Assembly: GCA_016200485.1 (NCBI GenBank)
Contig: JACQEP010000010.1
Coordinates: forward strand, 124,001 to 188,000
Reading direction: 5' to 3'
DNA length: 64,000 bases
DNA from: Gammaproteobacteria bacterium
GTDB lineage: Bacteria; Pseudomonadota; Gammaproteobacteria; Tenderiales; Tenderiaceae
The translations under genes and the position numbers were made by a program. Below the pieces are notes generated by a model. The model saw only the letters and a list, made by a program, of their open reading frames with translations. It had not been told where the DNA came from and did not search any database. Numbering within the stretch: the stretch's first letter is position 1; every line of letters begins with the position of its first letter. This document shows, piece by piece, positions 1,922 through 51,254 of this stretch.

Positions 1922-2872
1922 TTAAGATGCCTTGCGGCGACGGGCAACTGCGCCCAGCCCGGTCAACCCTGCACCCAACAGCAACAGGCTGCCCGGCTCA
2001 GGCACAGCACTCAGTACCGGATCTTCGCTCACCAGATGCCAGCCAAAACCCGCTGGGGCAGCACCGCGGAACTTACCGCAGCCTGCGCCTTCACAGTTGA
2101 TGCCCGTCAGATCATCCTGGCCGTTAAGGTTGTTGTCCTTCGCGGTACGGAAGTTACTCTGGGCAAAGGCATCGTGAAGATTGCCGAACGCATCGACGAT
2201 GGTATTCTGATCGAAACTGTTATTCGCTGCACCAGTTCCGTTGCTGGTCGTACCTACGGACATGTAGGTCGAGCTAGAACCCTGGGCCGGCGCGGTGGTT
2301 GCGTCGATGGTGCTAGCCAACGTGCTTAACGTAGCGTCAATCCCAGTATCGAACAGCAACGACAGCCAATGATACTGGCCCGCGTCGTTGATCCCCGTAT
2401 AGACTGACTCGCTAACCCAGCCACTCGAACCTAAGGCATAAGGATTAATGTTAGCAGGCAGGACATAAATGTCCATCATACCGCCCTGCATCTTGACCTG
2501 GGTACCGGTAGCGTTGGTCGAAAGAATATCCAGACCATAATACACGCCCCACAAATGCTCACCACCCGTGCCGTCGGTCCAACTGGCCGTGACATTGCTA
2601 ATTGGCTGATAGATCGAGCTGATCTGGAAAATGGCGTGCAAATCCGACGTGCCATTACCCACTGCACTAAGAGGAATGCTGAGATCACCCGTGGCAAGAC
2701 CATTGGTGGTTAACTGGTCCTGGGCTGTTTCCCAGTTCTGGTACTTGAGCTTGATTGAATCAGCCGCCAAACTGGGAGCCGCTTGTGCTGCGCCAGCTGC
2801 CAATAACGCGCCACTGAGTATGGCCGCCGTTACCCCCGCCTGCAGTTTGTTCATTTTAAATAAGGATTTCAC
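1922..2872 (-). CDS. PEP-CTERM sorting-domain protein (exosortase substrate)
   Basis: 316 residues with an N-terminal signal peptide (hydrophobic core after MNKLQAG, likely cut after AGAAQA) and a classic C-terminal PEP-CTERM signal in the last 28 residues: VPEPGS, a hydrophobic glycine-rich helix (LLLLGAGLTGLGAVA) and an RRRK basic tail. Such proteins are exported, processed by exosortase XrtA (not in this window) and released to, or held in, the extracellular matrix. The middle is rich in Thr, Ser, Asn and Gly with no recognised domain. The start is GTG at 2872 because AGGAG lies 7 bases upstream. A sigma-54 promoter 98 bases upstream and the neighbouring prsK/prsR genes suggest control by that two-component system. 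Confidence 0.93.
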   Translation of the reverse strand: MKSLFKMNKLQAGVTAAILSGALLAAGAAQAAPSLAADSIKLKYQNWETAQDQLTTNGLATGDLSIPLSAVGNGTSDLHAIFQISSIYQPISNVTASWTDGTGGEHLWGVYYGLDILSTNATGTQVKMQGGMMDIYVLPANINPYALGSSGWVSESVYTGINDAGQYHWLSLLFDTGIDATLSTLASTIDATTAPAQGSSSTYMSVGTTSNGTGAANNSFDQNTIVDAFGNLHDAFAQSNFRTAKDNNLNGQDDLTGINCEGAGCGKFRGAAPAGFGWHLVSEDPVLSAVPEPGSLLLLGAGLTGLGAVARRRKAS

Positions 2873-2969
2873 CGTTGTTCTCCTAAAAAAATTTTAAGGT
2901 GGCCATTTAAAGTTTTAAAGTTTCTCAACTCAAAATTTCTAACTTGTAAAAACTTCCCGATCATTACAA

Positions 2970-2986
2970 TGCACTATCCGTGCCAA
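2970..2986 (-). promoter_or_regulatory. Sigma-54 (RpoN) -24/-12 promoter of the PEP-CTERM gene
   Basis: On the minus strand the sequence is TTGGCACGGATAGTGCA. It has the invariant GG and GC dinucleotides separated by exactly 10 bases, and matches the TTGGCACRN4TTGCW consensus at all but one defined position. It lies about 98 bases before the GTG start. The activator for sigma-54 would be PrsR, encoded 6 kb upstream on the same strand. Confidence 0.85.
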
Positions 2987-3059
2987 AATTAAATAATCAT
3001 TAAAAAACATTATATTACGAGATTCCATTATCAATATTGTTCGATAATCTAACCGAAAG

Positions 3060-3076
3060 TGTAAAATTTTCCGACA
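3060..3076. promoter_or_regulatory. Putative enhancer site 1 (17-mer) upstream of the sigma-54 promoter
   Basis: TGTAAAATTTTCCGACA, an imperfect dyad with TGT and ACA ends around an AAAATTTT core. It is identical in 16 of 17 positions to 3193-3209 and lies about 75 bases upstream of the -24 element, a normal distance for a sigma-54 activator site. Binding by the Fis-type helix-turn-helix of PrsR is inferred. Confidence 0.55.
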
Positions 3077-3192
3077 CATCGCCGCATCACCCAAAAATCA
3101 ATAAAATATTTATTTATCAATAAGATAATATATTTTTAAGTATTCTCGCGCCTTTCCCCGCGGCCAAGTGATCAAAAACATACAAAAAACAC

Positions 3193-3209
3193 TGTAAAAT
3201 TTTTCGACA
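3193..3209. promoter_or_regulatory. Putative enhancer site 2 (17-mer) upstream of the sigma-54 promoter
   Basis: TGTAAAATTTTTCGACA, same orientation as the copy at 3060-3076 with one difference, and about 207 bases upstream of the -24 element. It ends a few bases from the prsT stop codon. Two like-oriented copies are what an oligomeric bacterial enhancer-binding protein would use. Confidence 0.5.
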
Positions 3210-3214
3210 ATCCC

Positions 3215-6022: not shown

Positions 6023-6037
6023 TGGAATTTTCCTGCA

Positions 6038-8818
6038 TTATTTTGTCAATCGCTGCAACAAGGCTTGTGCCTGCGGCTTTTCCGGGAATTCATTTTGATC
6101 GCGCAACAGGCGCTCAACCTCTTTTTTTGCTTCGTCACGCCGTCCGGCTTTTTCATACGCTGCGGCCAAATGATAACTCAGCGATGGCATTTGCGGCGCA
6201 TTGGTACGGGCGTCCTGCAGCAGGCGCAATCCCTTATCGATCTGTCCCTGGTCGACCAAAATCCAGCCGAGGGTATCGGCAATCTCTGGTTTACCCTGGC
6301 CAATTTTGTAGGCTTTTTCCGCATATTGTACGGCGCTGGGGTCTTTTTGTTCCTGCAAGGCCACGGCCAGATTATTCAGCGCGACAACATGTTCCGGCTG
6401 GGCCTGGATGATCTTGCGATACTCTTCAATGGCACCACGATCTCCGGCTGATTGCAGGGCCATGGCCAAGTTCATACGTACATCGAGATCTTGCGGATTT
6501 CTGGCCAGCCACTGTTGTAAGGGGACATAGGGTTTATCAAGCTTGGCTTGGCTGCGTGCGCCATATAGCTTCAATGCCAAAAGTCGATTTGGATTCTTGG
6601 CAAAAACTTTTTCATAGGCAGCAACTGCCTCCTTAGGTTTGTTGTCGCTGCTAGCGATATCACCACTTAATTCATCGGCCAGGGCTGATTGATCGGGCTG
6701 CTGCTTACGCAAACGTTGCACGACATCCTGTGCCGCCTTCGTATCCTTATTCAGCATGTGAACTTTGACCAGAGCCGGATAAATCACCAACAGTTTATTG
6801 TCTTGCTTGAGGGCTCGTTCCAAGGTTGCAGCCGCATCTTTGTAAGACTTAGCCTGCATCTGCGCCTCGGCAACCAATAACAAAGGTTGCGGCGATTGCG
6901 GCATCTTGTCGGCCAGCTTCTTGAAGCTGGAGATGGCACTGCTATAGTCCTTGTTGGCCAGTTGCGCCTTGCCCAGCAATTGCAGGGTCGCAGGATTATC
7001 GGGATTCTGATCTGCCAGGGCACGGGCAGCATTGATCGCCTTGAGTGGCTCACCAAGGGCCAATTGATAATCGACCAGCATGGCCACTGGCTCGACGGCC
7101 TTGGGATCGGCAGCGCGCGCCTTCTCGAACCATTCCAGAGCGCCTTTTTCATCTTTGCTCATGGCCGCCAACCGGCCCAGCGCCAGCATAGCACCGATGT
7201 GTTTGGCATCTTGCTTCAGGATATCCTGATAATGCGCCTTGGCTTGATCGTTGGCACCTTTCGCCAAGGCCATCTGCGCCAGATTCATGTGTGCCGGGGC
7301 AAAACCAGGGTCAAGCTTGAGCGCCTGCTCGAAGGCTTTGCGGGCGTCATCCGCCTTGCCTGCGGCCATCAGACTGCTACCCAACAGATTCTGTGCCAGC
7401 GCGCTCTTGGGCTGTTTGGTGATCAGTGCCTTGGCGGATTTAATCGCATCTTCATATTTACCTTGGCGCAACTGGGTGTAGACCAGCAAGATGTCGGCTT
7501 GAACTACAGATTGATCCAGGCCAACCGCTGTTTTCAAATCATCCGTCGCCTCCGACATTTGTCCCGAAGCCATATGACCGAGCGCCAGCTGCGTGCGAAT
7601 CGAGGCTAAATCTGGCGCCAGCTCGGCGGCGCGCTCGAGATACTGTGTGCCTTTTTCCTGCTGCCCAGCCTGCAGGTAAGCGCTGCCCAACAATGCCTGC
7701 AACTGGGCATCATCCTTCTCTTGCGCGGCAACGACATCCAGTGTTTCGATCGCCTTGGCCGGTTGTTTCAATCGCATATAAGTCGCTGCCAGTAACTTGC
7801 GGGCAGGCACGTGATTGGGAACTGCGGCCACAAATTGCCCCAAACGATATTCAGCCTGTTCAAAATCGCCTTGCCCAAAATGCGTAGCCCCCAGCAGCAA
7901 CTGGGATGGGGCATGAGTGGGAATCACCTTCAACACTTCATTGGCGGCGTCCTTCGCACCCGCCAGGTCCTTGCGTTGAAACAGGATGGAGGCACGCAAA
8001 TAATTGGCCAACGGGTGTTGCGGCGACAGTTTTCTTACCTGTTCGATATCGGTAAGCGCAACATCCAATTTCCCGGTCGCCGCTTTCACCGTTGCCCTGC
8101 CCAGCAATGCCTGAATACTACGCGGCTTGAGTGCCACGGCTTTATCGAAGGCAGTAGCTGCGCCTGCCATGTCTTTATCACGCCGCAACAATTCACCGCG
8201 CAATATCCACGCGTCGGCTTCTTTTGGATGCACGCTGATTACTTTATCGACGTAGTTCTTTGCCGTGGCAGTATCCTGCCCCAAAAAGGCCAATCGTGCC
8301 TTACCCAACATAGCACTCGCATTATTGGCATCCAGCGCCAACGCGGCATCATAGGCCTTGGCCGCTTCCTCGGCAGCCCGGCGCTGAAGTTGTGCATCTC
8401 CTTGCAGTACCAACACATCAGCGCGCTTGGCGGCGGGTGCTTCAGCGCCCAGTTTGATTTCGCTTAGAATCTCCTTGGTCTTGCCCTGAATCAGATAGGC
8501 CTTGCCCAGCAAAGGCATCACCTCTTCCGGCTTGGCGCCTAATTTCAGCGCATGGGACAATTCCTTTTCTGCCCCCGGGCCGTCACCGCTCTCCACATAA
8601 ATTTCGCCCAGCAGCATACGCGCATCGCGATGATCCGGCGCTTGCTGAATTGCATTCTTGAGCTGAATCACGGCGGAAGAATATTGACCTTTGGCGGCAA
8701 AACCGCGCGCATCGTTCAACAACTGATCTACATTGGCGGCGCTAAACGTAAACGGCGCAGTCAATAACAAAACAGAAAAACTGCATCCGAGCGTGAAATT
8801 CTTTATTGAGATTTTCAT
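6038..8818 (-). CDS. Second PrsT-like TPR protein, secreted rather than lipidated
   Basis: 926 residues, the same length and architecture as the adjacent PrsT: a signal peptide (hydrophobic core GCSFSVLLLTAPFTFSA) followed by about 20 TPR units. The first repeat (ARGFAAKGQYSSAVIQLKNAIQQAPDHRDARMLLGEIYV) lines up with that of PrsT, so the two are tandem paralogues. Unlike PrsT, no lipobox cysteine is present, so it should be a soluble periplasmic protein cut by signal peptidase I. A strong AGGAGGG site precedes the ATG. The pair sits 55 bases after prsR. Division of labour between an anchored and a free scaffold is inference. Confidence 0.9.
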   Translation of the reverse strand: MKISIKNFTLGCSFSVLLLTAPFTFSAANVDQLLNDARGFAAKGQYSSAVIQLKNAIQQAPDHRDARMLLGEIYVESGDGPGAEKELSHALKLGAKPEEVMPLLGKAYLIQGKTKEILSEIKLGAEAPAAKRADVLVLQGDAQLQRRAAEEAAKAYDAALALDANNASAMLGKARLAFLGQDTATAKNYVDKVISVHPKEADAWILRGELLRRDKDMAGAATAFDKAVALKPRSIQALLGRATVKAATGKLDVALTDIEQVRKLSPQHPLANYLRASILFQRKDLAGAKDAANEVLKVIPTHAPSQLLLGATHFGQGDFEQAEYRLGQFVAAVPNHVPARKLLAATYMRLKQPAKAIETLDVVAAQEKDDAQLQALLGSAYLQAGQQEKGTQYLERAAELAPDLASIRTQLALGHMASGQMSEATDDLKTAVGLDQSVVQADILLVYTQLRQGKYEDAIKSAKALITKQPKSALAQNLLGSSLMAAGKADDARKAFEQALKLDPGFAPAHMNLAQMALAKGANDQAKAHYQDILKQDAKHIGAMLALGRLAAMSKDEKGALEWFEKARAADPKAVEPVAMLVDYQLALGEPLKAINAARALADQNPDNPATLQLLGKAQLANKDYSSAISSFKKLADKMPQSPQPLLLVAEAQMQAKSYKDAAATLERALKQDNKLLVIYPALVKVHMLNKDTKAAQDVVQRLRKQQPDQSALADELSGDIASSDNKPKEAVAAYEKVFAKNPNRLLALKLYGARSQAKLDKPYVPLQQWLARNPQDLDVRMNLAMALQSAGDRGAIEEYRKIIQAQPEHVVALNNLAVALQEQKDPSAVQYAEKAYKIGQGKPEIADTLGWILVDQGQIDKGLRLLQDARTNAPQMPSLSYHLAAAYEKAGRRDEAKKEVERLLRDQNEFPEKPQAQALLQRLTK

Positions 8819-8873
8819 ATTCCCTCCTACTGCCGTGAGGCAGGTTTGATATCGCGTCCGTTGCCAATAGAGA

Positions 8874-10241
8874 TCAGGATAGTTGCTTTAATCCGTATTT
8901 CGCCAATAAATCATAAAGCGTAGGCCGGCTCACGCCCAAGCTTTCTGCCGTCTGTGCGACATTATCGGGGAACATTGCCATTGCGCGCATAATGGCGGCA
9001 CGCTCGGCACTTTCCCTGACTTCCCGCAGATTGAGAGACGCACCTATCGCGCCTGTGGCCAGCTCCAATTCTTCCGCTGTCACCCGATTACCCTCCGCCA
9101 TGATGACTGCGCGCTTGAGTTTGTTTTCCAATTCACGGACATTGCCCGGCCAGGGGTGCGCTTCGATTGCGGCAATTGCATCATCGGTAAAGCCACGAAG
9201 ATTACGGTGATGCTCCTGTGCAAAACGGTCGAGAAACACACGCGCCAATAACACAGCATCACCCTCGCGTTCGCGCAAGGGCGGAATATTGATCGTAATT
9301 TCACTGATGCGATAATAAAGATCTTCGCGGAATCGCCCCGCCTGCACCAACTCCGTCAAGTTCTGATTGGTGGCGCAGACCACTCGTACATCAACCGGAA
9401 TTTCGCCCCGCCCTCCCAAGCGTTCGATCACCCGCTCTTGCAAGAAACGTAATAACTTTACTTGCAACTGCCCGGGGATATCGCCAATTTCATCGAGAAA
9501 CAGCGTACCGCTATCCGCGTATTCAATTTTGCCTTTGGTTTGTTTAACTGCCCCCGTAAAGGCGCCCTTCTCGTACCCGAACAATTCGCTCTCAAGCAGT
9601 GTCTCGGGAATGGCACCACAGTTAATGGCGATAAAGGGTTTGCTCTTGCGCTGACTCAAATCATGCAGGGCGCGGGCGATGACCTCCTTGCCGGTGCCAC
9701 TTTCTCCCAGGAGCAGGGTTGTCACATTCGTGGGCGCCACTTTTTCAACTGTGCGGCAAATTTTCATCATCTGCGGACTGCTGGCAAGGACCCCCTTGAC
9801 GGACGAACTGCCGAATTGCTGATTCAGCAACCGGTTTTCCGCTTCCAGCTCGAAGAGCTGATAGGCGCGCTCGACAATCATTCCCAGCACTTCGGCATCC
9901 ACCGGCTTCTGGTAATAATCATAGGCACCTTTGGCGATGGCCTTGACGGCATTCTCCCGCTCATCATTCCCTGTGACCACGATAATCTTGGTCGTGGGGG
10001 CGATACGCAAAATCTCATCCAGCGCCGCCAGTCCTTCGCTGGCATTTTCAGCATCCGGCGGCAACCCGAGATCCAGCAATACCACCGGCGGCTCATGGCG
10101 CCGCAAGGCCGTCAGTCCCTCCTCGCGATCACCCGCGATCACTACCTGATAGCCTTCAAAACACCACCGCAACTGGCTCTGCAAACCAGGATCATCTTCG
10201 ATGATCAGGAGCTTCTTCTGTTCCTGCTTGGAGCGACTCAA
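8874..10241 (-). CDS. prsR: PEP-CTERM-box sigma-54 response regulator PrsR
   Basis: 455 residues in three domains. The receiver (1-120) has the acidic cluster EDD at 15-17, phospho-acceptor Asp57 in VVLLDLGLP, and Lys112. The AAA+ sigma-54 interaction domain (about 150-380) has Walker A GESGTGKE (179-186), GAFTGA (226-231), which contacts RpoN, and a Walker B segment GTLFLDEIGD. A Fis-type helix-turn-helix closes the protein (VSRPTLYDLLAKYGL). This is the TIGR02915 family, found with exosortase systems. It overlaps prsK by 4 bases, so it is translated coupled to its kinase. Probable target: the sigma-54 promoter at 2970-2986. Confidence 0.95.
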   Translation of the reverse strand: MSRSKQEQKKLLIIEDDPGLQSQLRWCFEGYQVVIAGDREEGLTALRRHEPPVVLLDLGLPPDAENASEGLAALDEILRIAPTTKIIVVTGNDERENAVKAIAKGAYDYYQKPVDAEVLGMIVERAYQLFELEAENRLLNQQFGSSSVKGVLASSPQMMKICRTVEKVAPTNVTTLLLGESGTGKEVIARALHDLSQRKSKPFIAINCGAIPETLLESELFGYEKGAFTGAVKQTKGKIEYADSGTLFLDEIGDIPGQLQVKLLRFLQERVIERLGGRGEIPVDVRVVCATNQNLTELVQAGRFREDLYYRISEITINIPPLREREGDAVLLARVFLDRFAQEHHRNLRGFTDDAIAAIEAHPWPGNVRELENKLKRAVIMAEGNRVTAEELELATGAIGASLNLREVRESAERAAIMRAMAMFPDNVAQTAESLGVSRPTLYDLLAKYGLKQLS

Positions 10242-12352
10242 GGGCTCACCTCATCAGTTGCCACGTTACCAGAGGATAACGGTATCGAGATTTGAAACAA
10301 AGTACCCCTTCCGGGCTGACTCTTCACCTCAACCCGCCCCCCTAGCCCCAAAATAAATTCGCGACACTCATAAGCCCCGATCCCCATCCCAGCGTTGCCC
10401 TTGGTGGTATCAAAGGGCCGAAATAGCCTTTCGCGTACGAATTCGGCATCCATGCCGCAACCATTGTCTTCAATTTCGATCAGCGCCTCGTTCTTGTTGG
10501 ACTTCATCAGCCCCACCCGCACCCACCCCTCGGCAGGCGTAGCCTCTTGGGCATTCTGGATGATATGTTCAACCACCGCCGCCAGCCGGTCACGATCGGC
10601 AACCACACTCAACCCTTGTCTCTCGACCTCCAGGCGGGGAATAGGCCGGCTCCCGGCACGATGCCGCACCACTTCCTCCAGCACCGGGGCCAGCTTAATG
10701 GCGGTGGCCGCCAGCGCCGCAGGCCGCCCCTGCCGTAATTGCGCCAGCATCTTCTGCATCTTGGTCACGGAGTTTTCGACCGTCGCCATGGCATCGGCCA
10801 CGAACTCCGGATTATGGCTGAATTTTTTGGCATTCGTGGTCACCAAAGACAATTGACCGACAACATTCTTGAGATCATGCACCAGATAGGCCGACAAACG
10901 ATTAAAGGCCTCAAATTGCCGGGCGCTGGCCAACGCCGTACTCGCCTCGGCCAAGGCCAAATAGCTCGCCGCCTGCCGTGCCGCCGTCTTGAGCAAGTCG
11001 CGATCTTCCCAGTTGATGGGGCGTGCTGCACGCGACTCCGTAAGCAGGACAAATCCCAACAGCTCACTGCGTTGCAGCAAGGGGATAATTAGCCAGGCAC
11101 GAGGCACATCTTCCAACCAGGCGGGTAATTGCAGTTCACCGTATAGCTCAGGGTTGGTTTGATACTCCGCAAGATTGATCAACCAGTCGCGCTCGATCAT
11201 GAAGCGCGCGACCGGATCATCCGCCATCACTACCGTATGCCGATCCGGCACATTCCAAAGACCTGTCTGTTCATAGCGGCCATGTTCGTCCTTCAACCAC
11301 AGACAACCGCCGGTACTGTCCACCATCGTGGCCAGCACTTGTACTATCCGTTGCCGTAAACTGCCACTACCGACATCTTCAGTCGTAAGCGCCGCAATCA
11401 AGTTGAGCCATTCATCCCGGTAGTCATATTTGTAACTGAAAAAGTGTTTGCTCAGAAATACTTTAAAGCGTGCCCGGATGTGACCGGAAAACAATAAGAT
11501 GAGCAGTACAAAGCCGGCACCAAACAGAAAAATGACTTGCCCAATGCCACCCCAACTGCCGCCGTAATAACGGATCAGGTATCCGCCCGCCGCCATGGCA
11601 ATTAAATACCCACCCGTGGCCATCAATGCAGCGGTATGGAACACCACCCGCCGCGAGACAAACACATCCAGCGACCACTGCGGATTACGCACTGCCGCCA
11701 CTGCAATCAGCGGCACGGCAAAGACTTGGATCAAGCCCCGCGCCTCCCACAAACGGCCATCGAGATGTCGCAGCAATAAGGCATCCGAATACATAAAGAA
11801 ATCGTAGGCAAACATGCCGCCGATCCCCAGACACAGATATTTGATTGCCCAACGTTGTTCGGGGCGAGTGTTACGAAAAATCTGTTCCACCAGCGCCAGG
11901 GCGATGATCACCACCAGCACATGGCCAATAAAGCGCGGATCAAAACTGAGGACTGAATCCAGTGAGCCACCATGCATCCAGGCCACCAGATGCACCACCA
12001 TCAACAAGTTTGCAAGACTGAGCACCGTATAAAACGGCGCCCGCACCCCGGAAGAGAGTTGCCACTCGAAGGTATCATTGGCCTTGGGGCTGAGCAGGCG
12101 CACCAGGAAGACAATCCAGGCCATGTCGCGCAATAATTCTGCGACAAAGACCAGATCCGACTGTGGGTAGCCCAGCGCTGCATGGTACGTCATCATCAGC
12201 GACCACACCGCTGCCACTGCACACGCCACCAGCAACAGCGCGCCCTGCAACCGCCCGCGCCAGCTGGTCAATAACAATACGCTGAGCACTACATATGCCA
12301 GCGCTGACAGGCCGTAGGTTATAACTCCGACTTCAATATTGATTTCCGCCAT
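10238..12352 (-). CDS. prsK: PEP-CTERM system histidine kinase PrsK
   Basis: 704 residues. The N-terminal 300 residues are a multi-pass membrane sensor (about eight to ten hydrophobic helices), then a GAF-like domain (about 320-470), a dimerisation segment with His492 in LVHDLKN, and an HATPase domain with N-box (Asn600 in IIQNAQEA), G1 (EDNGCGM, 628-634) and G2 (GMGIGAYECREF, from 655). The layout and length fit PrsK (TIGR02916). It is the cognate kinase of PrsR, whose start overlaps its stop. The signal sensed is unknown. It follows the XrtA-type glycosyltransferase by 49 bases, consistent with one transcript. Confidence 0.94.
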   Translation of the reverse strand: MAEINIEVGVITYGLSALAYVVLSVLLLTSWRGRLQGALLLVACAVAAVWSLMMTYHAALGYPQSDLVFVAELLRDMAWIVFLVRLLSPKANDTFEWQLSSGVRAPFYTVLSLANLLMVVHLVAWMHGGSLDSVLSFDPRFIGHVLVVIIALALVEQIFRNTRPEQRWAIKYLCLGIGGMFAYDFFMYSDALLLRHLDGRLWEARGLIQVFAVPLIAVAAVRNPQWSLDVFVSRRVVFHTAALMATGGYLIAMAAGGYLIRYYGGSWGGIGQVIFLFGAGFVLLILLFSGHIRARFKVFLSKHFFSYKYDYRDEWLNLIAALTTEDVGSGSLRQRIVQVLATMVDSTGGCLWLKDEHGRYEQTGLWNVPDRHTVVMADDPVARFMIERDWLINLAEYQTNPELYGELQLPAWLEDVPRAWLIIPLLQRSELLGFVLLTESRAARPINWEDRDLLKTAARQAASYLALAEASTALASARQFEAFNRLSAYLVHDLKNVVGQLSLVTTNAKKFSHNPEFVADAMATVENSVTKMQKMLAQLRQGRPAALAATAIKLAPVLEEVVRHRAGSRPIPRLEVERQGLSVVADRDRLAAVVEHIIQNAQEATPAEGWVRVGLMKSNKNEALIEIEDNGCGMDAEFVRERLFRPFDTTKGNAGMGIGAYECREFILGLGGRVEVKSQPGRGTLFQISIPLSSGNVATDEVSP

Positions 12353-12401
12353 GGTCTAACCCAAAAAATATTGCAGCGATGAGTCAGACCAAGGCAGCAA
12401 C

Positions 12402-13805
12402 TCAACGCGCCCCCTGTCCCCACAACACCACTTCCGCCGTTTGGAACAAAATCAACAGATCAAGGAAAATGCTATAGTTTTTGACGTAATAAAGATCATA
12501 TTGCAATTTTTCCATGGCATCGTTCTCCGATGAACCATAGGGATAACGAATCTGCGCCCAGCCGGTAATTCCCGGTTTGACACGATGCCGCTCGGCGTAA
12601 TAGGGAATCTGCTCACTCAATTGTTCGACGAACTCCGGCCGCTCCGGCCGTGGACCGACGAAACTCATATCGCCCTTGAATACATTGAGCAATTGCGGCA
12701 GCTCATCGATGCGGCTCCGGCGCAGAAACTTTCCGACGCGCGTAATCCGGTCGTCGTTCTTTTTCGCCCACTGCGCCCCGTTTATCTCGGCATCGATCCG
12801 CATACTGCGGAACTTCAATACCTGAAACAAACGCCAATTCTGACCGACGCGCACCTGGCGATAAAGGATCGGGCCGGAGAATCCGCTCTCGATCCAGATC
12901 GCCAATGCTGCCAGCAACATGAATGGCCAGGCCAAAAACAACAGGAAACTACTGGCCGCAATATCAAAACAACGCTTGAACAGCAGTTGCAGCGGCCCCT
13001 GCTGAAAACCATCGGAGAATATCAGCCAGCTCGGGTGCAGGATATCAAGCCGGATTTTTCCGGTCTGGCGCTCGAAAAAGGTTTGAATATCCACCACGTC
13101 GATTCCGCTCATTTTGCAATCGAGCAAGTCATCCACCGCAAAATCCTTGCGCCGGTCTTCAACCGCCACCACAATCTCGCTGACATTATGCTTTTGCGCA
13201 AATTCGAGCAGCGGCGCCTCAAGATGAATCACTTTTTCCTGCGGCATCTGATCCTGCTCGCTGGCCACATGCACAAAGCCGAGGATGGTAAATCCCATTT
13301 GATCAATCTTGCGCCGTAACTGGTTAAATTGGACAGCCCGCTTACCGGCCCCCAGCACAATCACGCGGCGCTTCAATTGCTCCTGCCCTACTATGCGATA
13401 AAAGATGGTGCGGATGATAATGATACTGGCGACGCCGATCCCGAACCCAAGGGCAAAGGCGCCGCGCCCCAGAAACAACGGGGGAAAGCTGTAAAACAAA
13501 ACAATCATGCCGACCAGACCCAACAGGAAAGCGATACTGAAGCGCAACACCATCCCCAGGCGGCCATCACGGATGTTGTTTTTGTAGAGGCCGGTGGTGG
13601 CCATTGCCGCCAACATCACCAGGGCAAAGGTCAGTGCCTTCGGGGCGATCGGCATGACCTCGGCAATCGCGCCGCTATCTGCCCCCAGAAAACGCAGCTC
13701 CACTCCAAGACCCATGGCCGCTGCCAGAGCGAAAAACTCGAGCAACCCCAGCATCAAAAATGAACTCGGGATGTAGTGGCGGAAAATTCTCATCATTCTT
13801 GGCAA
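12402..13805 (-). CDS. XrtA/PEP-CTERM system sugar-1-phosphate transferase (TIGR03013-type)
   Basis: 467 residues. The first 120 residues form four or five membrane helices, followed by a CoA-binding-like Rossmann segment (KRRVIVLGAGKRAVQFNQL) and a C-terminal bacterial sugar transferase domain with another membrane helix. Signature pieces are KRCFDIAASSFLL, ILYRQVRVGQNWRLF, LKFRSMR, DELPQLLNVFKGDMS and VGPRPERPEFV. The enzyme moves a sugar-1-phosphate to undecaprenyl phosphate and so starts each exopolysaccharide repeat unit at the inner membrane. The TIGR03013 subfamily is restricted to exosortase loci. It is the first gene of the likely operon with prsK, prsR and the TPR genes; an AT-rich stretch at 13806-13953 probably holds the promoter. 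Confidence 0.92.
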   Translation of the reverse strand: MPRMMRIFRHYIPSSFLMLGLLEFFALAAAMGLGVELRFLGADSGAIAEVMPIAPKALTFALVMLAAMATTGLYKNNIRDGRLGMVLRFSIAFLLGLVGMIVLFYSFPPLFLGRGAFALGFGIGVASIIIIRTIFYRIVGQEQLKRRVIVLGAGKRAVQFNQLRRKIDQMGFTILGFVHVASEQDQMPQEKVIHLEAPLLEFAQKHNVSEIVVAVEDRRKDFAVDDLLDCKMSGIDVVDIQTFFERQTGKIRLDILHPSWLIFSDGFQQGPLQLLFKRCFDIAASSFLLFLAWPFMLLAALAIWIESGFSGPILYRQVRVGQNWRLFQVLKFRSMRIDAEINGAQWAKKNDDRITRVGKFLRRSRIDELPQLLNVFKGDMSFVGPRPERPEFVEQLSEQIPYYAERHRVKPGITGWAQIRYPYGSSENDAMEKLQYDLYYVKNYSIFLDLLILFQTAEVVLWGQGAR

Positions 13806-43097: not shown

Positions 43098-43766
43098 ATG
43101 CCTATCAACGCAACAGTAATCGAACAGACCGATTGCAATCACGGCTGGCAACGCATACGTATCCAGATTCCAAATCTGGCCACGTCGCCACAACCCGGAC
43201 AACATTTGATATTTGCCGATCAGCAGTTAGCAATTATGCAAAGCGACAATCGCGGCAACATCGACTGTCTGCTATCCCCCGATCAACCAAAGCTCACCAC
43301 CGGCCCCATTAAAATCAACGGCCTTGGTGGTCAACCACTACAGCTTGATCCGCGATTTAAATATCCATTACTGATCGGACAGAATCAGGGGATCGCATCC
43401 ATGATCTTCTTCAGCGCCACGATCAGACGCCAAACCGATCTCCGCCCCTTAGTATTATTGGGCAGTCACCGAGGATTTCCTTTCCGCCCACAACCGAGTC
43501 AGATCCTGGTATCAGGATTAGCCGTTGCTGCCGCACCATTATTGGAAAATTGGAAAGTTGCCAGCCGCTTGGCGACAACTACAGAACAGCCAGGATGCCA
43601 TGAAGGCACGGCAGTCGAACTCGCCGCAAATTGGCTCTCGAATTTGAACACCGCAGAAATAAAACAGGTGGCAATTTACGTCAGCGGTGACGCCATCACC
43701 TGTCAGTCAGCCGCGCAACTTGCGACCGAGTATCGCCTTGTTATCCAGAGCGCTAACGACGTTTAG
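43098..43766 (+). CDS. PyrK-like ferredoxin-reductase-fold protein of unknown function
   Basis: 222 residues. The order of motifs recalls dihydroorotate dehydrogenase electron-transfer subunits: an N-terminal beta-barrel half (QPGQHLIFADQQLAIM), then a nucleotide-binding-like half with YPLLIGQNQGIASMIFFSATIRR and LVLLGSHRGFPFRPQPS. The cysteine cluster that binds the 2Fe-2S centre in PyrK is missing, and the glycine motif is degenerate. It lies directly after pyrC', so a pyrimidine-linked function is plausible but unproven. ATG at 43098 is chosen; an upstream frame reads through the palindrome. Its end overlaps pilU, convergent, by 14 bases. Confidence 0.7.
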   Translation: MPINATVIEQTDCNHGWQRIRIQIPNLATSPQPGQHLIFADQQLAIMQSDNRGNIDCLLSPDQPKLTTGPIKINGLGGQPLQLDPRFKYPLLIGQNQGIASMIFFSATIRRQTDLRPLVLLGSHRGFPFRPQPSQILVSGLAVAAAPLLENWKVASRLATTTEQPGCHEGTAVELAANWLSNLNTAEIKQVAIYVSGDAITCQSAAQLATEYRLVIQSANDV

Positions 43767-44955
43767 GCGTGCGCAAAGGATAAAGCGTCCCCTTCTCTTT
43801 CTCTTCGCTCCCTTCCAGCGTAATCCCATCCATTGCCGAACTCAGTTGATCCACCCCTGATTCGGAACCCAACTTGATCATCAAACGCACTTCATTCGGT
43901 GAATCGGCATACAACACGGCATCGTCATAACTAATCTCGCCCGCTTTGTACAACTCATACAACGCATAGTCAAAGGTGCGCATTCCTTGCTGCGTCGACT
44001 TCTTCATCACATCATGCAACAAATGCACTTCACCACGCAAAATCAAGTCCGAGACCAGCGGCGTATTCACCAGTATCTCCGTCGCTACTCTTCGCCCCAC
44101 GCCACTCGCCATCGGCACCAAACGCTGAGCTACGATCGCCTTCAAATTCAGCGATAAATCCATCATCAGCTGTTGCCGCCGATCCTCCGGGAAGAAATGG
44201 ACGATGCGATCCAGGGCCTGCTGGGCATTCGTCGCGTGCAATGTCGTTATTACCAAGTGTCCGGTTTCGGCAAATGAAATCGCGTGCTCCATGGTCTCAC
44301 GAGTGCGAACCTCGCCGATCATAATCACGTCGGGCGACTGGCGCAGAGTGTTCTTCAGCGCATTATCAAAAGAATGAGTATCAATCCCGACTTCGCGTTG
44401 CGTCACAATGCAATTCTGGTGCGCATGCACATATTCAACAGGATCTTCAATACTGACGATATGGCCATGACTATGCTTGTTGCGATAACCGATCATTGCC
44501 GCCAGCGAAGTCGATTTCCCCGAACTCGTCGCCCCGACCATAATGATCATGCCACGCTTGGCCATCACCAGGTCATTCAAAAATGAGGGCAGTCCTAAAG
44601 ATTCAATTGTGGGGATCTCGGTCTTGATCCGACGTAATACCATCCCCACTTCATTTTGCTGCTGAAACACGTTGACGCGGAAGCGACCGATCTCTGGATG
44701 GCCAATGGCAAAATTCAGTTCCAGCATCTCATCGAAATCACTCGCCTGGGCCGGTGTCATCACCCCATATACCAGCGCCCCGACCTGTTCCTGCGTCAAT
44801 GGCGTTTTGGATAAAGACCGCATCTTGCCATCCAGCTTCATGCTCGGCGGCACACCCACGGTGATAAACAAATCTGAAGCATCTTCTTCGGCAACGATCT
44901 TGAGCAAGGACCAGATATTGGCCGGCTCAAAACAATAGAGTTTTTTTGGAGTCAC
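43753..44955 (-). CDS. pilU: Type IV pilus retraction ATPase PilU
   Basis: 400 residues. The start (EEDASDLFITVGVPPSMKLDGKM) is typical of PilU; Walker A GATSSGKST, Asp box VSIEDPVEYVHAH, Walker B QSPDVIMIGEVRTRETM and His box TGHLVITTLHATNA follow in order. PilU helps PilT retract type IV pili in twitching motility. It normally stands beside pilT, which is not in this window. Last residues overlap the convergent PyrK-like gene. Confidence 0.93.
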   Translation of the reverse strand: MTPKKLYCFEPANIWSLLKIVAEEDASDLFITVGVPPSMKLDGKMRSLSKTPLTQEQVGALVYGVMTPAQASDFDEMLELNFAIGHPEIGRFRVNVFQQQNEVGMVLRRIKTEIPTIESLGLPSFLNDLVMAKRGMIIMVGATSSGKSTSLAAMIGYRNKHSHGHIVSIEDPVEYVHAHQNCIVTQREVGIDTHSFDNALKNTLRQSPDVIMIGEVRTRETMEHAISFAETGHLVITTLHATNAQQALDRIVHFFPEDRRQQLMMDLSLNLKAIVAQRLVPMASGVGRRVATEILVNTPLVSDLILRGEVHLLHDVMKKSTQQGMRTFDYALYELYKAGEISYDDAVLYADSPNEVRLMIKLGSESGVDQLSSAMDGITLEGSEEKEKGTLYPLRTPKRR

Positions 44956-45258: not shown

Positions 45259-48219
45259 CTAATTTGCTTGTGCTGGACGAGAAACCTGATACAACTTGTC
45301 CGCTGTCAAAAGATTGTTTTTACGCACAGTCATCAAATCAATATTCGCTGTATCTCCTGTATCATGAACAGCCTCAATAAGAATCTTATTCTGCACCGCC
45401 CAGTCAATTTTCTGATCAAAACTATGCATCGCATAACTTGCAAACGCGGTAGGATCGGCGACATCAGTGTCATCATCAATCCCTAATGACGGAGTGACCA
45501 ACCATCGCTCAACAGTGACTTGAGCTCCTGCAGGAACAAGATACCGGTCATTCACGGGAGTAATCTCAGAGTTGGTGGTTTTATTAAAAACCTTAAATGT
45601 TCCCGGAAAAAACCCTTTACTCTCTTTCAAGAAAGAAGGCGTCAATGTATTCACCGGACCTAAGGTTGATACATAACTATAAGTCTCGCGCTGCTCCAGT
45701 GACGAAACATTGGCACAGACACCACCCCAATTACTGACCATCGCCACCTGAGCAGGATCAGCTTGAACCGGATCATTCAACGAGTAATCAACCCAAGCGC
45801 CATTAGGCATGGGATAGAAACTACTATCAAAATCCGGCAACGATGTCCAACTACCCGCTGCCGAAGGCACATCTTGATACACTCGATACGAACCGCTAAC
45901 CACAGGTAACGTCGGTGGATGTTCCAACTGCCAGCCAGTCACCGTATAGTTGTACACTGAGGCAATGGATTGTGCGTTTCCAACTTGCGGACAACCATCT
46001 ACCGTCAGCGTAGCCAAATCCGCAAATGTGCCACGCCATTCAGTGCTCGTGGTTCTGATCACTTCATGCTCGCGAATTCTTTGTTCTATGAAGCGCTCAG
46101 CCATGTGCTGCCCGACATCCTGAACCCTAATGTAATAAGGTCGCCCTGTCATATTCGTGAAGCTGTACTCCGCATCCTTGAAAGTCACACCATGCAACCC
46201 GCCACGATTAGTAAAGGCTGTCCCGAGAAATAACGCAGAGCCCTTATCGCTTGACATCACCGCCCCTTGGGCAAAGGCTGGCACCACAAAATTTGGCTTA
46301 AAGGTGAACAGCTTCTCTTTGCTTGGATTGCCTGCCTCATCGAATGCCCGCACTCGCAAACTGATCACGTCATTGGGCGTTAACTTCAACCAATTGGCGT
46401 AAAGTTTTTCCGTTGCCAGAGGAAGCAAATATTCTCCATTGACCATGGCCAATGGAACCCATGGACTCATTACCACCCCATCTTTTTCTATCTGCAGGGA
46501 AACTGAGATTTTATCTGGCACAGAACCAGCAACGTCAAAGGACGCCGGATCATTCACCTTAAAGGCGAAATAAGGAATAAGACTAGCCTTCAAATTAGCG
46601 CGCGCGATGAGCGTTCCGCGAAGCCCGACTTTATCGGTTTCAAAATATACCGACTCAACACTGGCATCGGTAAGCAACTTCGATGTTACTACACCATTAC
46701 CATCCAAAAATCGCGCTTCACCATGCCCAAGAACTGTTGCCAAAATCTCTGGCACCGCCTGATCTACAAGCACATCGATTTTAGAGGTAACCTGATTACC
46801 GATAACATCGGTCACTACCGTAGTGATCGAATTTTTTCCCTTAGTGAGAGGTATGTTGTCGACTCGCCAAGTCTTCTTTGTGATATCGGGCGTCACGAAC
46901 TGATTGCCAATCTTGATACTGGACAACGCTGCGCCATTCTCGATATACCCTCCCGTGAGCGTAATCGAACTCAAATTGGTCACCGCGACCGGATCTGGGT
47001 TTAGATTCGGCCCTTCGTTATCAAATTTCAACAGGAACGTCTTCTCAATTTTATTACCAAGCATATCGGTGGCCACGGCTCTTACTTTGTGATCGCCATC
47101 GACAAAACTAGTTGTGACAATCTTGATTGCCGGTTGATTTGGATCAGCGGCATCCCCGATCACTGTTCCATCCACGTCGAAACGAACTTGTTTAAGCACA
47201 ATCGTTTCACTCGGCATGACGCTAAAAGGTAGCTCCCCGTTGTAATACCAATTTTCACGCACAAAACTGGTCAGCGTTACCTTGCCATCAATGGCAGGTA
47301 CCCCACTCGGCACCAGTCCATCACTATTTTCTAACAATGCCTTGGCTCGCGGCAGAAGGTCATTCATGACAATTCCCGTGGCGTTCTTATCACCCGCCGC
47401 CAGAGTGACCATGTGCTGCGCCAAATCGAGACGGTACACAGAGGGATTAAGCGGCTGCCCGGCGAACTCCAGCGCCATTGGTTGCCCATTAACGGAATTT
47501 AGCCCAACACCATCAAGAACACCATCCGCCTGAATATCGTTATAAATAATCTGCGTCAGCTCCATGGTGCTGAATACTGCACCTGGCGCGGCATTACCAC
47601 GCTTCGTTGCCCAATCCGCCCAACTGGACATCGCTGCCAGATAAAATCCGTAATACTGTCCGTCGCGATCGACTGCCGATGTATCGCTAATGCTAAACGG
47701 ATGGGTGTTGATAATGTCCACCTGAAACAGCTTCGAAATCTCTGCATTGGATTTGGTTACTGCATCCCCGACCGCCACACCGTGTGCGGCCTTATACTCT
47801 GCCAACCCAGCCGCGATATGCGTCAACGGCGTCACCATCAATGACAGCGGCTCTCCGGAACGGTACAACGTGACCGCACGCAACACCTGATCGGAGTCGA
47901 CATCAATGTGCGCGCCACTGACCAGATCGGTGAATGCACCGCCCCGTGCTTCGATTAAGACCGGGCGATCTTTGCTCTGCAATCGCAACGCGTAGGCGCC
48001 ATCGGCAGCCGATACACTCGAAGTCGCTAACAATTCTCCCTGACGACCATCATCAAACGCATAGACGCTAACCGTGGCGCCACTGACGGGATCATCAACC
48101 ACATAACCGCTGACACTGCCAAAGGGACGCTCGGCCGGCAATTCCGGCTCAGTGACGCCATTACACGCCGCTAACACTGCCGCAGCAGCAACCCACCCCA
48201 AATAATTTTTTATCTTCAT
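45259..48219 (-). CDS. Very large Ig-like surface lipoprotein
   Basis: 986 residues from the ATG at 48219. Lipobox VLAAC with Cys19. Residues 35-110 resemble a carboxypeptidase regulatory-like domain (FGSVSGYVVDDPVSGATVSVYAFD, DGAYALRL). Then come a helical region (about 120-310), two or three bacterial Ig-like or cadherin-like modules (DGDHKVRAVATDMLGNKIEKTFLLKFDNEGP, INSITTVVTDVIGNQVTSKIDVLVDQ-type pattern), and a C-terminal 300 residues without a family match. No PEP-CTERM tail is present. It is probably exposed on the outer membrane, and the Ig modules suggest adhesion. It follows a predicted beta-barrel gene and an XrtA-type ATPase gene on the same strand. Confidence 0.8.
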   Translation of the reverse strand: MKIKNYLGWVAAAAVLAACNGVTEPELPAERPFGSVSGYVVDDPVSGATVSVYAFDDGRQGELLATSSVSAADGAYALRLQSKDRPVLIEARGGAFTDLVSGAHIDVDSDQVLRAVTLYRSGEPLSLMVTPLTHIAAGLAEYKAAHGVAVGDAVTKSNAEISKLFQVDIINTHPFSISDTSAVDRDGQYYGFYLAAMSSWADWATKRGNAAPGAVFSTMELTQIIYNDIQADGVLDGVGLNSVNGQPMALEFAGQPLNPSVYRLDLAQHMVTLAAGDKNATGIVMNDLLPRAKALLENSDGLVPSGVPAIDGKVTLTSFVRENWYYNGELPFSVMPSETIVLKQVRFDVDGTVIGDAADPNQPAIKIVTTSFVDGDHKVRAVATDMLGNKIEKTFLLKFDNEGPNLNPDPVAVTNLSSITLTGGYIENGAALSSIKIGNQFVTPDITKKTWRVDNIPLTKGKNSITTVVTDVIGNQVTSKIDVLVDQAVPEILATVLGHGEARFLDGNGVVTSKLLTDASVESVYFETDKVGLRGTLIARANLKASLIPYFAFKVNDPASFDVAGSVPDKISVSLQIEKDGVVMSPWVPLAMVNGEYLLPLATEKLYANWLKLTPNDVISLRVRAFDEAGNPSKEKLFTFKPNFVVPAFAQGAVMSSDKGSALFLGTAFTNRGGLHGVTFKDAEYSFTNMTGRPYYIRVQDVGQHMAERFIEQRIREHEVIRTTSTEWRGTFADLATLTVDGCPQVGNAQSIASVYNYTVTGWQLEHPPTLPVVSGSYRVYQDVPSAAGSWTSLPDFDSSFYPMPNGAWVDYSLNDPVQADPAQVAMVSNWGGVCANVSSLEQRETYSYVSTLGPVNTLTPSFLKESKGFFPGTFKVFNKTTNSEITPVNDRYLVPAGAQVTVERWLVTPSLGIDDDTDVADPTAFASYAMHSFDQKIDWAVQNKILIEAVHDTGDTANIDLMTVRKNNLLTADKLYQVSRPAQAN

Positions 48220-48233
48220 GGCATTCACCAACG

Positions 48234-48845
48234 TTAGAATCGATACAGAAACAATAGCGAAATGGAAGAAGTTTTCACTCCCTCCTTGTTATCCAATGGC
48301 ATGGCATGCTCGAGCTTTACCCCGATATCCCAATCCCAATCCAGACGCCATTCACTCGACGCATTGATAATGACCGCAGTCTCGCTTTCATTGCGATCTG
48401 GCAACACCTGATTGAGATAGCCTTGAGCATCAATGGTGTAACGTTCATGGAATTGATCACGCGAGAATTGCAGCCCGCCTCCGAACCATGGTGTCCAGAC
48501 GGGGCCCAGATTAATACTGTGTTGTAGTGACATGCGCAAACCCGTTTGTTTGATCGTTTGCCCGATCAAGTCCGTGGTCGCCTGCAATGACCCCTTTTGA
48601 TAGAACAACTCTTCCCAATGGCGCCACCCCGACCCCATGCGCTGGGAATACACTAAGTTGAACGGCCGAGCCGCCCAATCGCCATAACTAGAACCATTAG
48701 GATCAATTACCGAAAAATAGGCACTGCCAAAGGTCATCCCGACACGGCCCGTTTGCACCGGCATGCCGATCGCCACGGCATGGACAGGTTCGACCATCGC
48801 GACAAAACTTCCAATAACCATCCCCACGAACCACCCTGTTCGCAT
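48234..48845 (-). CDS. Predicted outer-membrane beta-barrel protein
   Basis: 203 residues with a signal peptide (GMVIGSFVAMVEPVHAVA) and alternating-polarity strands (FNLVYSQRMGSGWRHWEELFYQKG, TPWFGGGLQFSRDQFHERY, LDWDWDIGVKLEHAM). The last strand ends in a terminal Phe (SISLLFLYRF), the usual signal for BAM insertion. No named family is recognised. It lies 14 bases before the large lipoprotein gene and after the ATPase gene on the same strand, so the products may form a surface complex. Confidence 0.72.
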   Translation of the reverse strand: MRTGWFVGMVIGSFVAMVEPVHAVAIGMPVQTGRVGMTFGSAYFSVIDPNGSSYGDWAARPFNLVYSQRMGSGWRHWEELFYQKGSLQATTDLIGQTIKQTGLRMSLQHSINLGPVWTPWFGGGLQFSRDQFHERYTIDAQGYLNQVLPDRNESETAVIINASSEWRLDWDWDIGVKLEHAMPLDNKEGVKTSSISLLFLYRF

Positions 48846-48872
48846 AACGCCACCCCATTATTGTTTTGTAGT

Positions 48873-48980
48873 TATACTATTAACCCGGCGACTAAATACA
48901 TCGCGCTCAAACTCCCTCCCTCTTGCAGGGGGAGGGAACTAATGTTCAGATGTATTTAACTGCCAAGTTAGTAATAGTAT
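48873..48980. repeat. Nested inverted repeat, family F
   Basis: Outer arms from ATACTATTA (48873) and TAATAGTAT (to 48980) pair with gaps; inner arms AAATACATC (from 48894) and GATGTATTT (to 48957) pair exactly; a third level is CTCCCTCC/GGGAGGGA. It sits between the ATPase and the beta-barrel genes. Confidence 0.72.
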
Positions 48981-48983
48981 TTT

Positions 48984-51254
48984 TTAATGTACTTGATGCA
49001 CTAAACGCTTAATGACAAAACGATTTCCTTCTTGCACAACGCTCACCTGAATTCGACCACTACTTACCAGCGGTGACTCCGTACTCTTACGCCACACACT
49101 AGCCTCGAAATTACCGGTACCTAATAATTTTCCATCAACGTCTTGCCACTTAACGTCACTGATATCCATTCGCCGCATATCAGTCGAATCAAACAACTCT
49201 TTGTAATCACGAGCAATACGCTTATTACCCTGACTGCCATCGGCTGATGCATCCTTGGCGAACAACCCGACAAGCGACGACAGTTCACCATTGTTGTAAC
49301 TCTGCTCCAAAGTGAACAATAGCTCCGTCAAAGCCAACTCACGCCGCGATAACCGTTCATCTATTTGTGGATTAGCCTTGGTGACTTCAGCCGCCGCAAC
49401 GCTTTGGGCCGATAGCCTGTCTTCTGCTGTTTCTATCTTTGCGACCGGTGGTGGCGCCACGAGTGCATTTGCCTCTTTCACTGCCCCACCATTTTGAGCT
49501 TCGATTTTATTGTCGGCCACAGATGATTTTGACGTTGCAGATGATGCTTGTGGTTTATTAACTGCTGGCAACGATCTCGCCATAGAAACTTTCGGGGCTA
49601 ACTCCGCTGACATTGCGCGAACATCACGCTTTTGAACAGCAGCTTCTTCCATCACCGATTTATTTGTCTCGACCCGCTTCTCATTCTTTTTAACTTGTGG
49701 TTCCGGAACAGGCGTTACCGCTGGAGCTTCTGGCTCAGCAGGTAATTCAGCAACCACCGTCGCCTCAGCAGGAGACGCGCCGCTTTCTGAGGACATTGTT
49801 ACTGTTTCAGGCGTCTCAATGGGGATACGCCCATCAATCGTCGTCTCATTGCCTACAGCCCGTACTTTGTTCTCAATCAAACTCCAAAGTGATCCAAACA
49901 TTGACGATTGCATCAACCACCAGGCACCGATACTCGCCACCATCAACGTCGAGCCAAGCCCCCACCATAAACCCTTTCCTGCACGATGATTAGCGATTAC
50001 TTTTGCGGGTTGTACAGGTACTGCTATCGGAACATCGTTATTAGCGGTAGCATTATCAGCAACAGCATTATTATGGCGTAGCGGTAACACGATAACCTTG
50101 GCCGGTTCTCGCGGTTTAATCTCTGTTTCAGCATCCTCCGCTCTTAGCGGTATAGGCTCGTTATCAACATCAGGTATGGTTTCCGGCGCCGGAGTGTAAA
50201 CACGTCCGAAACGGTCAACTTCAGGCGTATTATCCATAACCGGAGGCTGATTGCGAACGTTACCAGTATCTTCTACTTCCTCTATCGCCGGAGACATAAC
50301 ACTCGATTCGGATGCGAGATTGTGATGATCACTGTCCCTAATCGGCAGCTGTTCATTTGACACAGCATTTGGATCCGGCAATGGTGCAAGTTTTTCTTCC
50401 GCCAGCGATAGCGCATCCAACTGGGTAAAATCCCAACCCGCACCCGCCTCATACCGTAATTCAGCAATCATGGCATGCACAGCGCCGGCATCAATCAGAT
50501 GTTTCTCATCGAGATAGGCAGACAAGAAGAGTCGCTCACAGAATACATTGATCAACCGTGGCAGACCTTTACTACAACGACATATGAGCGCCAAAGCTTC
50601 GCCGGTAATAGACGGATCACCGCTCCAGCCTGCGAGACGTAAACGATGCTCAATATAGGCGCGGGTTTCCTCGGCTGAAATGGGTTGTAAATGGCAAGCC
50701 GCGATAATGCGCTGCGAGAGCTGCTCCATATCAGGATCGGCCAGAATCTGCCGTAACTGTTGCTGCCCCAACAAAATAATTTGCAACAGTGCTTTATTGC
50801 CCAGCTGGAAATTAGACAACATGCGCAATTCTTCCAGCGACTGCACAGGAAGATTCTGCGCCTCATCCACAATCAATAACACGCGCTTGCCATTCTGCAC
50901 GGTAGTGGTAAAAAAACGCTCGATAGCAGTCAGAAGCTCAGACTTGCTCGTGCCAGAGGGGCGCACACCAAAGGCATCTGCCGCCGCCCGCAATACATCA
51001 TCCGCACTCAGATTGGTACTCGACAGGGTAGCCACGACCGAGGTTTGTGCCGACAATTCCGCCAGCAGAGTTTGCAGCAACATGGTCTTGCCGGTCCCCG
51101 GCACGCCGGTAACGGCAACAAACCCCTGCCCCTGCTGTAAGCCATAACGCAAATACGCCAATCCGCGCTTATGACCGGCGCTCGGATAAAAAAAACGGGG
51201 ATCGGGGGCTAGCCGGAAAGGATTCGCCTTCAGGCCATAAAATGATTCGTACAT
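48984..51254 (-). CDS. XrtA/ExeA-type AAA+ ATPase with membrane anchor and NTF2-like end
   Basis: 756 residues. The N-terminal 270 residues match the XrtA-associated/GspA ATPase type: MYESFYGLKANPFRLAPDPRF-like start, Walker A GVPGTGKT (50-57), Walker B RVLLIVDEAQ (124-133), LLGQQQLRQIL, GLPRLINVFCERLFLSAY. Family members that accompany exosortase are about 270-350 residues. Here a 150-residue acidic linker leads to one membrane helix (about 428-449), then a Pro/Ala/Glu-rich spacer and an NTF2-like domain (about 640-756; LEQSYNNGELSSLVGLFAKDA). The plan is that of GspA/ExeA, but with an NTF2-like domain in place of a peptidoglycan-binding domain. It leads a probable transcription unit with the beta-barrel and lipoprotein genes. 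Confidence 0.87.
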   Translation of the reverse strand: MYESFYGLKANPFRLAPDPRFFYPSAGHKRGLAYLRYGLQQGQGFVAVTGVPGTGKTMLLQTLLAELSAQTSVVATLSSTNLSADDVLRAAADAFGVRPSGTSKSELLTAIERFFTTTVQNGKRVLLIVDEAQNLPVQSLEELRMLSNFQLGNKALLQIILLGQQQLRQILADPDMEQLSQRIIAACHLQPISAEETRAYIEHRLRLAGWSGDPSITGEALALICRCSKGLPRLINVFCERLFLSAYLDEKHLIDAGAVHAMIAELRYEAGAGWDFTQLDALSLAEEKLAPLPDPNAVSNEQLPIRDSDHHNLASESSVMSPAIEEVEDTGNVRNQPPVMDNTPEVDRFGRVYTPAPETIPDVDNEPIPLRAEDAETEIKPREPAKVIVLPLRHNNAVADNATANNDVPIAVPVQPAKVIANHRAGKGLWWGLGSTLMVASIGAWWLMQSSMFGSLWSLIENKVRAVGNETTIDGRIPIETPETVTMSSESGASPAEATVVAELPAEPEAPAVTPVPEPQVKKNEKRVETNKSVMEEAAVQKRDVRAMSAELAPKVSMARSLPAVNKPQASSATSKSSVADNKIEAQNGGAVKEANALVAPPPVAKIETAEDRLSAQSVAAAEVTKANPQIDERLSRRELALTELLFTLEQSYNNGELSSLVGLFAKDASADGSQGNKRIARDYKELFDSTDMRRMDISDVKWQDVDGKLLGTGNFEASVWRKSTESPLVSSGRIQVSVVQEGNRFVIKRLVHQVH

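Follow-up and report, generated by a model that had tools for sequence, protein, structure and literature searches.

A conserved three-gene unit in Gammaproteobacteria pairing a TIGR03015-type ATPase with an NTF2-like tail, a predicted eight-stranded outer-membrane barrel and an Ig-like lipoprotein

Introduction

ATPases of the TIGR03015 type belong to XrtA and exopolysaccharide (EPS) loci, Slam proteins are larger barrels with a periplasmic TPR part, and Ig-like folds are common and are, by themselves, no proof of adhesion. ExeA, an AAA ATPase, has a single membrane helix and a periplasmic domain needed for assembly of the outer-membrane secretin; its ATPase domain is required both for complex formation and for secretin assembly (PMC4098917). 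In the case of Slam-dependent surface lipoproteins, an outer-membrane barrel and a surface lipoprotein are encoded together (PMC5449769). RcsF, finally, binds the periplasmic part of OmpA and not its barrel, a precedent which calls for caution before any complex of a barrel and a lipoprotein is read as a conduit (PMC7553776). The locus described here touches on two open questions, namely, the delivery of large Gram-negative lipoproteins to the surface and the means by which ATPases in the cytoplasm can act on the outer membrane.

The window, by which we mean the whole stretch of 64,000 nucleotides that was analysed (contig JACQEP010000010.1 of assembly GCA_016200485.1), comes from a member of a marine, electrode-associated family. 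An earlier note, made from its sequence, had singled out three same-strand genes, for an AAA+ ATPase, an outer-membrane barrel and a giant Ig-like lipoprotein, as a candidate surface system powered by a GspA-like ATPase, and all three open reading frames are present on the minus strand between 45259 and 51254. The resemblance to GspA/ExeA (which works with GspB/ExeB) is a fair one, as the window protein belongs to the same broad AAA+ family and likewise combines one membrane helix with a large periplasmic part and a link to an outer-membrane structure. Unlike GspA/ExeA, it carries an NTF2-like domain instead of a peptidoglycan-binding one (none is found among the Pfam matches shown for the full ATPase or for its tail), no GspB or secretin gene lies nearby, and its partner is an eight-stranded barrel. 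Its AAA+ domain scores over the cut-off of the XrtA/PEP-CTERM ATPase family, yet the protein adds a membrane helix and an NTF2 tail to that domain, is encoded outside the XrtA locus and has counterparts in trios of exosortase-free genomes. The same succession of cytoplasmic module, membrane helix and NTF2 tail is seen in AAA+ and DnaJ proteins of EPS clusters, whose neighbours, however, are Wza, Wzc, Wzy, YjbH and SLBB proteins in place of a barrel and a lipoprotein. While the joint encoding of barrel and lipoprotein recalls Slam, the window barrel, with 203 residues, eight strands and no extra domain, does not have the make-up of a Slam translocon. Similarly, the lipoprotein shares a stalk of Ig-like modules with giant adhesins such as SiiE and MpAFP, but is lipid-anchored, about 1000 residues long and equipped with a conserved C-terminal domain of its own.

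Results and Discussion

The first gene of the trio (48984..51254, minus strand) encodes 756 residues in which, as the earlier note had proposed, an AAA+ ATPase is followed by a single membrane helix and an NTF2/SnoaL-like C-terminal domain, the latter two being joined by a Pro/Ala-rich linker. The predicted cytoplasmic AAA+ domain (residues 1-271; 50442..51254, minus strand) passes the TIGR03015 cut-off with 327.3 vs 324.5 bits over positions 1-269 of the 269-position model, and both its Walker A (GVPGTGKT at residue 50) and its Walker B motif (VDEAQN at residue 129) are intact. The predicted helix, GLWWGLGSTLMVASIGAWWLM (residues 428-448; 49911..49973, minus strand), was read from the sequence as a hydrophobic, Trp-rich segment; a simple hydropathy scan finds the helix in most relatives, but its Trp residues hide it from the scan in the window protein. 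As for the C-terminal domain (residues 623-756; 48987..49388, minus strand), the assignment comes from the family, namely, the tail can be aligned across ten relatives as a fold of the NTF2/SnoaL type. The SnoaL_2 profile reaches 27.6 bits against a cut-off of 27 in one relative (L094) and stays below the cut-off in another (L088), the tail of the window ATPase has no Pfam match of its own, and weak PDB matches are to NTF2-fold proteins. The window ATPase is 54% identical to the copy in the XrtA region of the same genome, and in two relatives (L089 8115-12559 and L092 14288-18627) the ATPase gene is duplicated in tandem before the barrel, one copy being devoid of the NTF2 tail. A single origin of the trio's ATPase is not borne out by the ATPase tree, in which the trio ATPases do not form one clade and well-supported branches force at least three label changes.

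The second gene (48234..48845, minus strand) encodes a protein of 203 residues with a signal peptide and a C-terminal Phe, in agreement with the outer-membrane barrel proposed before. Its AF2 model, built from 15 sequences, has a pLDDT of 89 and eight long, meandering strands, and it fits OmpA, NspA and OmpW at Z 15-17, OmpX-type proteins belonging to the same fold. Together, these features point to an eight-stranded outer-membrane barrel. Profile searches add little to this picture: no Pfam family exceeds its cut-off on the barrel (OMP_b-brl appears at E 0.038 only), and a PDB profile search with it returned nothing. The outer loops of OmpA-type barrels are usually their variable part, whereas 10 of the 17 near-invariant residues here fall in or at the predicted outward loops L1-L3. 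In particular, loop L3 (residues 134-151; 48393..48446, minus strand), predicted to be extracellular by the usual topology rule for such proteins, is the best conserved long segment, with the family motif RHTVDxDGFL...DR, and its conservation exceeds that of the strands.

Why would the outer loops be conserved? One way to account for them is to take the barrel for an outer-membrane enzyme, similar to PagP, PagL or OmpT, which acts on the lipoprotein or on lipids. The polar loop residues R135, D139 and R151 are conserved, and PagL, PagP and OmpT do occur among the fold matches, but the match is only to the general barrel fold and the 17 conserved positions include no catalytic set of invariant Ser or His; we consider this explanation very improbable. 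The loops would also be explained if they met a conserved partner outside the cell, for which the C-terminal domain of the lipoprotein is the simplest candidate.

The start codon of that lipoprotein, an ATG at 48219, lies 14 bp behind the stop codon of the barrel gene. The 986-residue product (45259..48219, minus strand) has a LAAC lipobox whose Cys19 is invariant in all 15 aligned rows, with Asn at position +2 and no Asp, as expected of a lipoprotein of the outer membrane, and it is further marked by a conserved LPxERP motif after the lipobox and a C-terminal YxxSR. Its modules follow one another as lipid anchor, transthyretin-like domain, helical region, Ig/FN3-like stalk (residues 313-645; 46285..47283, minus strand) and C-terminal beta domain (residues 655-986; 45262..46257, minus strand), of which the last has two cysteines, Cys743 and Cys835, that are invariant in closer relatives. 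The Ig-like modules claimed earlier are thus borne out: Big_13 matches the stalk at residues 417-490, and the stalk modules match Ig/FN3 domains both of bacterial adhesins (SiiE, MpAFP) and of glycan enzymes. The fold search barely covered the C-terminal domain, a PDB profile search with the lipoprotein returned nothing, and reading its sequence revealed no type I secretion signal. Giant lipoproteins of Vibrio, longer than 2400 residues (L112 9938-19339 and L113 9986-17224), share the N-terminal module of the window lipoprotein, and the one in V. sinus is encoded near a PAAR-repeat protein.

Are the three genes found together elsewhere? Profile searches in 369 gammaproteobacterial genomes, drawn as a sample and including several fragmented metagenome assemblies, matched the lipoprotein in 29 genomes, the barrel in 18, which are spread over eight families, and the NTF2 tail in 27. 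Every one of the 18 barrel genomes also has the lipoprotein family (1.4 expected; Fisher p 2e-23, ignoring phylogeny), and 17 of them have the NTF2-tail family (1.3 expected; Fisher p 2e-21, again ignoring phylogeny). What is more, the order of ATPase-NTF2, barrel and lipoprotein recurs in 12 genomes from five families, uncut in nine (G000, G001, G004, G005, G032, G062, G206, G215 and G318) and truncated by the end of a contig in three (G003, G010 and G091). The earlier note had named a failure to co-occur in relatives as one outcome that would count against it, and the opposite was found. The gaps within the trio are usually shorter than 75 bp, that between ATPase and barrel being mostly 16-70 bp, with 184 bp in G004. 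A scan of genome contigs with a narrower alignment gave six loci, and a viral collection yielded no relative. Recurring in at least five bacterial families, the trio is therefore a real, undescribed unit: neither Pfam nor NCBIfam names it as a system, and no account of it turned up in a limited search of the literature. Each part is of a known kind; it is the combination, the NTF2 tail on such an ATPase and the exchange of AAA+ for DnaJ described below that are not named in these databases.

The tie is closest between the barrel and the C-terminal domain of the lipoprotein. Namely, 16 of the 17 uncut lipoproteins that keep this domain have a barrel beside them, and the contig of the remaining one ends in a barrel fragment (the last part of the protein), while 15 of the 20 lipoproteins without the domain have no barrel, a result biased by the lipoprotein profile having been built from barrel-adjacent copies. 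Eleven genomes have the N-terminal half of the lipoprotein family and no barrel. Given this near-constant adjacency, and the correlation between barrel and lipoprotein distances (rho 0.76), the barrel and the C-terminal domain look like an obligate pair.

The ATPase is less strictly bound to this pair. Barrel and lipoprotein lack an adjacent ATPase on a Tenderia plasmid, on contig C46 of G032, on contig C8 of G046, in G074, G179 and G294, and on two further contigs of G032; on the plasmid (L087 1-14832, CP013100.1) and the latter two contigs (L096 and L097), their genes end clusters of the conjugation type, with ParB, TraC/VirB4-like and TrbI-like proteins. Conversely, the ATPase-NTF2 protein persists without the pair in G002 and G007, and its function is therefore not confined to the pair. 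In G046, DnaJ stands in for AAA+ in the gene ahead of the barrel, while the membrane helix and the NTF2 tail are kept, which makes the NTF2 domain the constant part.

One could take these observations to mean that two separate units are merely often found together, one being the pair, serving as a surface-contact or mating adhesin as on conjugative elements, and the other an unrelated envelope ATPase. Such a view draws on the ATPase standing alone in G007 and G002, on the pair standing alone on the G004 plasmid, in G074 and on contigs C46, C53 and C62 of G032, and on the conjugation clusters that end with the pair on the Tenderia plasmid and, twice, in G032. It is nevertheless unlikely, since an NTF2-tailed protein is present somewhere in 17 of the 18 barrel genomes, five families share the same order with small gaps, and the NTF2 tail stays in front of the barrel even where DnaJ has replaced AAA+.

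The same observations bear on the export machine that the earlier note had favoured, in which the AAA+ ATPase would power transport of the lipoprotein to the surface through or by way of the barrel. The conserved gene order and co-occurrence, the chain of predicted compartments from cytoplasm to surface and the intact Walker motifs are all in keeping with it. An eight-stranded OmpA-type barrel, however, offers no channel for a protein; on a plasmid, as in other genomes, the pair does without a neighbouring ATPase; and the AAA+ domain gives way to DnaJ in G046. Finally, ExeA, the closest characterised ATPase of this type, assembles a pore and does not power export (PMC4098917). Of the original proposal, the conserved unit spanning the envelope is supported and ATPase-powered export is not; we regard the latter as improbable.

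How does the trio relate to the XrtA system of the same genome? The earlier note had remarked that the XrtA locus is about 35 kb away from the ATPase, and PrsT, PrsR, PrsK and EpsB are indeed encoded at 3.2-13.8 kb of the window. The XrtA/PEP-CTERM set as a whole (window 1922-13805) contains two PrsT copies, PrsR, PrsK and an EpsB-type transferase, as well as a gene product weakly matching PepA, a PEP-CTERM protein associated with flocculation. The exosortase lies 18 kb outside the window, about 67 kb from the ATPase, and three genomes with the trio (G032, G062 and G206) have no exosortase; the ATPase is thus not tied to an exosortase locus here. That said, relatives with NTF2 tails on AAA+ or DnaJ proteins were found inside polysaccharide-export clusters at at least 10 of the 30 other loci examined, with Wza, Wzc and Wzy in some and YjbH with a multi-SLBB Wza in others. 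From the clusters of these relatives and the exosortase-free trios, we infer that the ATPase is related by descent to EPS-associated ATPases, yet that the trio is not a part of the XrtA system. The proteins built of DnaJ, membrane helix and NTF2 domain in Wza/Wzc/Wzy or YjbH clusters are at L220, L221, L226, L236, L238, L239, L240 and L242, and next to the genes of many of them lie two further genes, one TPR-like and uncharacterised, the other small and FecR-like. A putative second barrel in the EPS clusters (c236) was discarded, as it reads as a non-barrel membrane protein.

Another explanation is that the ATPase-NTF2 protein belongs to exopolysaccharide secretion, while barrel and lipoprotein retain or organise polysaccharide on the surface, adhesion being an indirect effect only. 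Besides the family's usual place in XrtA/EPS loci and the NTF2-tailed proteins just described, the enrichment of exosortase in barrel genomes (12 of 18, vs 34% of genomes overall) is in line with it. Against it, searches with the same queries found no polysaccharide genes within about 10 kb of any trio, three trio genomes do without exosortase, and on the plasmid the pair adjoins conjugation genes. We hold this explanation to be possible, if on the doubtful side.

Our preferred reading, which we put forward tentatively and with somewhat less than even confidence, is that the trio is a conserved module for putting a long adhesin-like lipoprotein in place at the outer membrane, its product being a surface adhesin or a matrix-anchoring structure. 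Here, lipoprotein and barrel would form an obligate outer-membrane pair, with the conserved outer loops of the barrel holding the lipoprotein, or orienting it, on the outside of the cell. The periplasm would be spanned by the inner-membrane protein with its NTF2-like domain, and AAA+ or, in one lineage, DnaJ would act from the cytoplasm to assemble or position the pair, in the manner of ExeA/GspA; alternatively, the inner-membrane protein might couple the pair to the cell's exopolysaccharide system. As the ATPase- and DnaJ-NTF2 relatives sit in polysaccharide-export clusters, the ATPase is more plausibly an assembly or positioning factor of the GspA/ExeA kind than an export motor. Of all this, the joint occurrence, the gene order, the domain make-up, the modelled fold of the barrel and its conserved loops were observed, and the surface position of the lipoprotein, contact between the three proteins, the part played by the ATPase and adhesion are inferred.

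In a wider and more speculative sense, these proteins could represent a class of envelope-spanning display systems that has gone unrecognised. The cytoplasmic modules (AAA+ or DnaJ) of such systems would be interchangeable and would act on clients in the outer membrane via a periplasmic NTF2-like domain common to all, the clients being the obligate barrel and adhesin-like lipoprotein in the present case and polysaccharide exporters elsewhere; we deem this generalisation unlikely. In either case, a barrel is tied to a lipoprotein across eight families, and the two frequently adjoin an inner-membrane protein that varies in its cytoplasmic part but keeps its periplasmic domain, so that the roles of the barrel loops, of the NTF2 domain and of ATP hydrolysis become separately testable. 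The hosts include the family of the electrode-dwelling Candidatus Tenderia electrophaga, for which surface attachment matters.

The gap between ATPase and barrel is longer in the window (138 bp) because it is filled by a palindromic dispersed repeat (48846..48983, minus strand; folding z-score -5.2), partial copies of which occur at many places in the same genome. This repeat looks like a miniature mobile repeat, and a conserved regulatory element in the gap, considered at one point, is ruled out by it; a search for a sigma-54/PrsR link gave matches to the -24/-12 pattern at chance level. The trio is flanked in the window by SLT and PilU genes. The lytic transglycosylase gene to which the earlier note had drawn attention is real and divergent, but adjoins the module in the window genome only, relatives having an Hpt-domain gene, YcgN or others there. 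On the other side, a gene for a PilT/PilU-type retraction ATPase (window 43753-44955) follows downstream on the same strand, and a glutamate dehydrogenase gene takes its place in relatives. With other genes in their places, both the transglycosylase and PilU were dropped as parts of the module. The spacer between the trio and the PilT/PilU-type gene measures 303 bp and contains a GC-rich palindrome.
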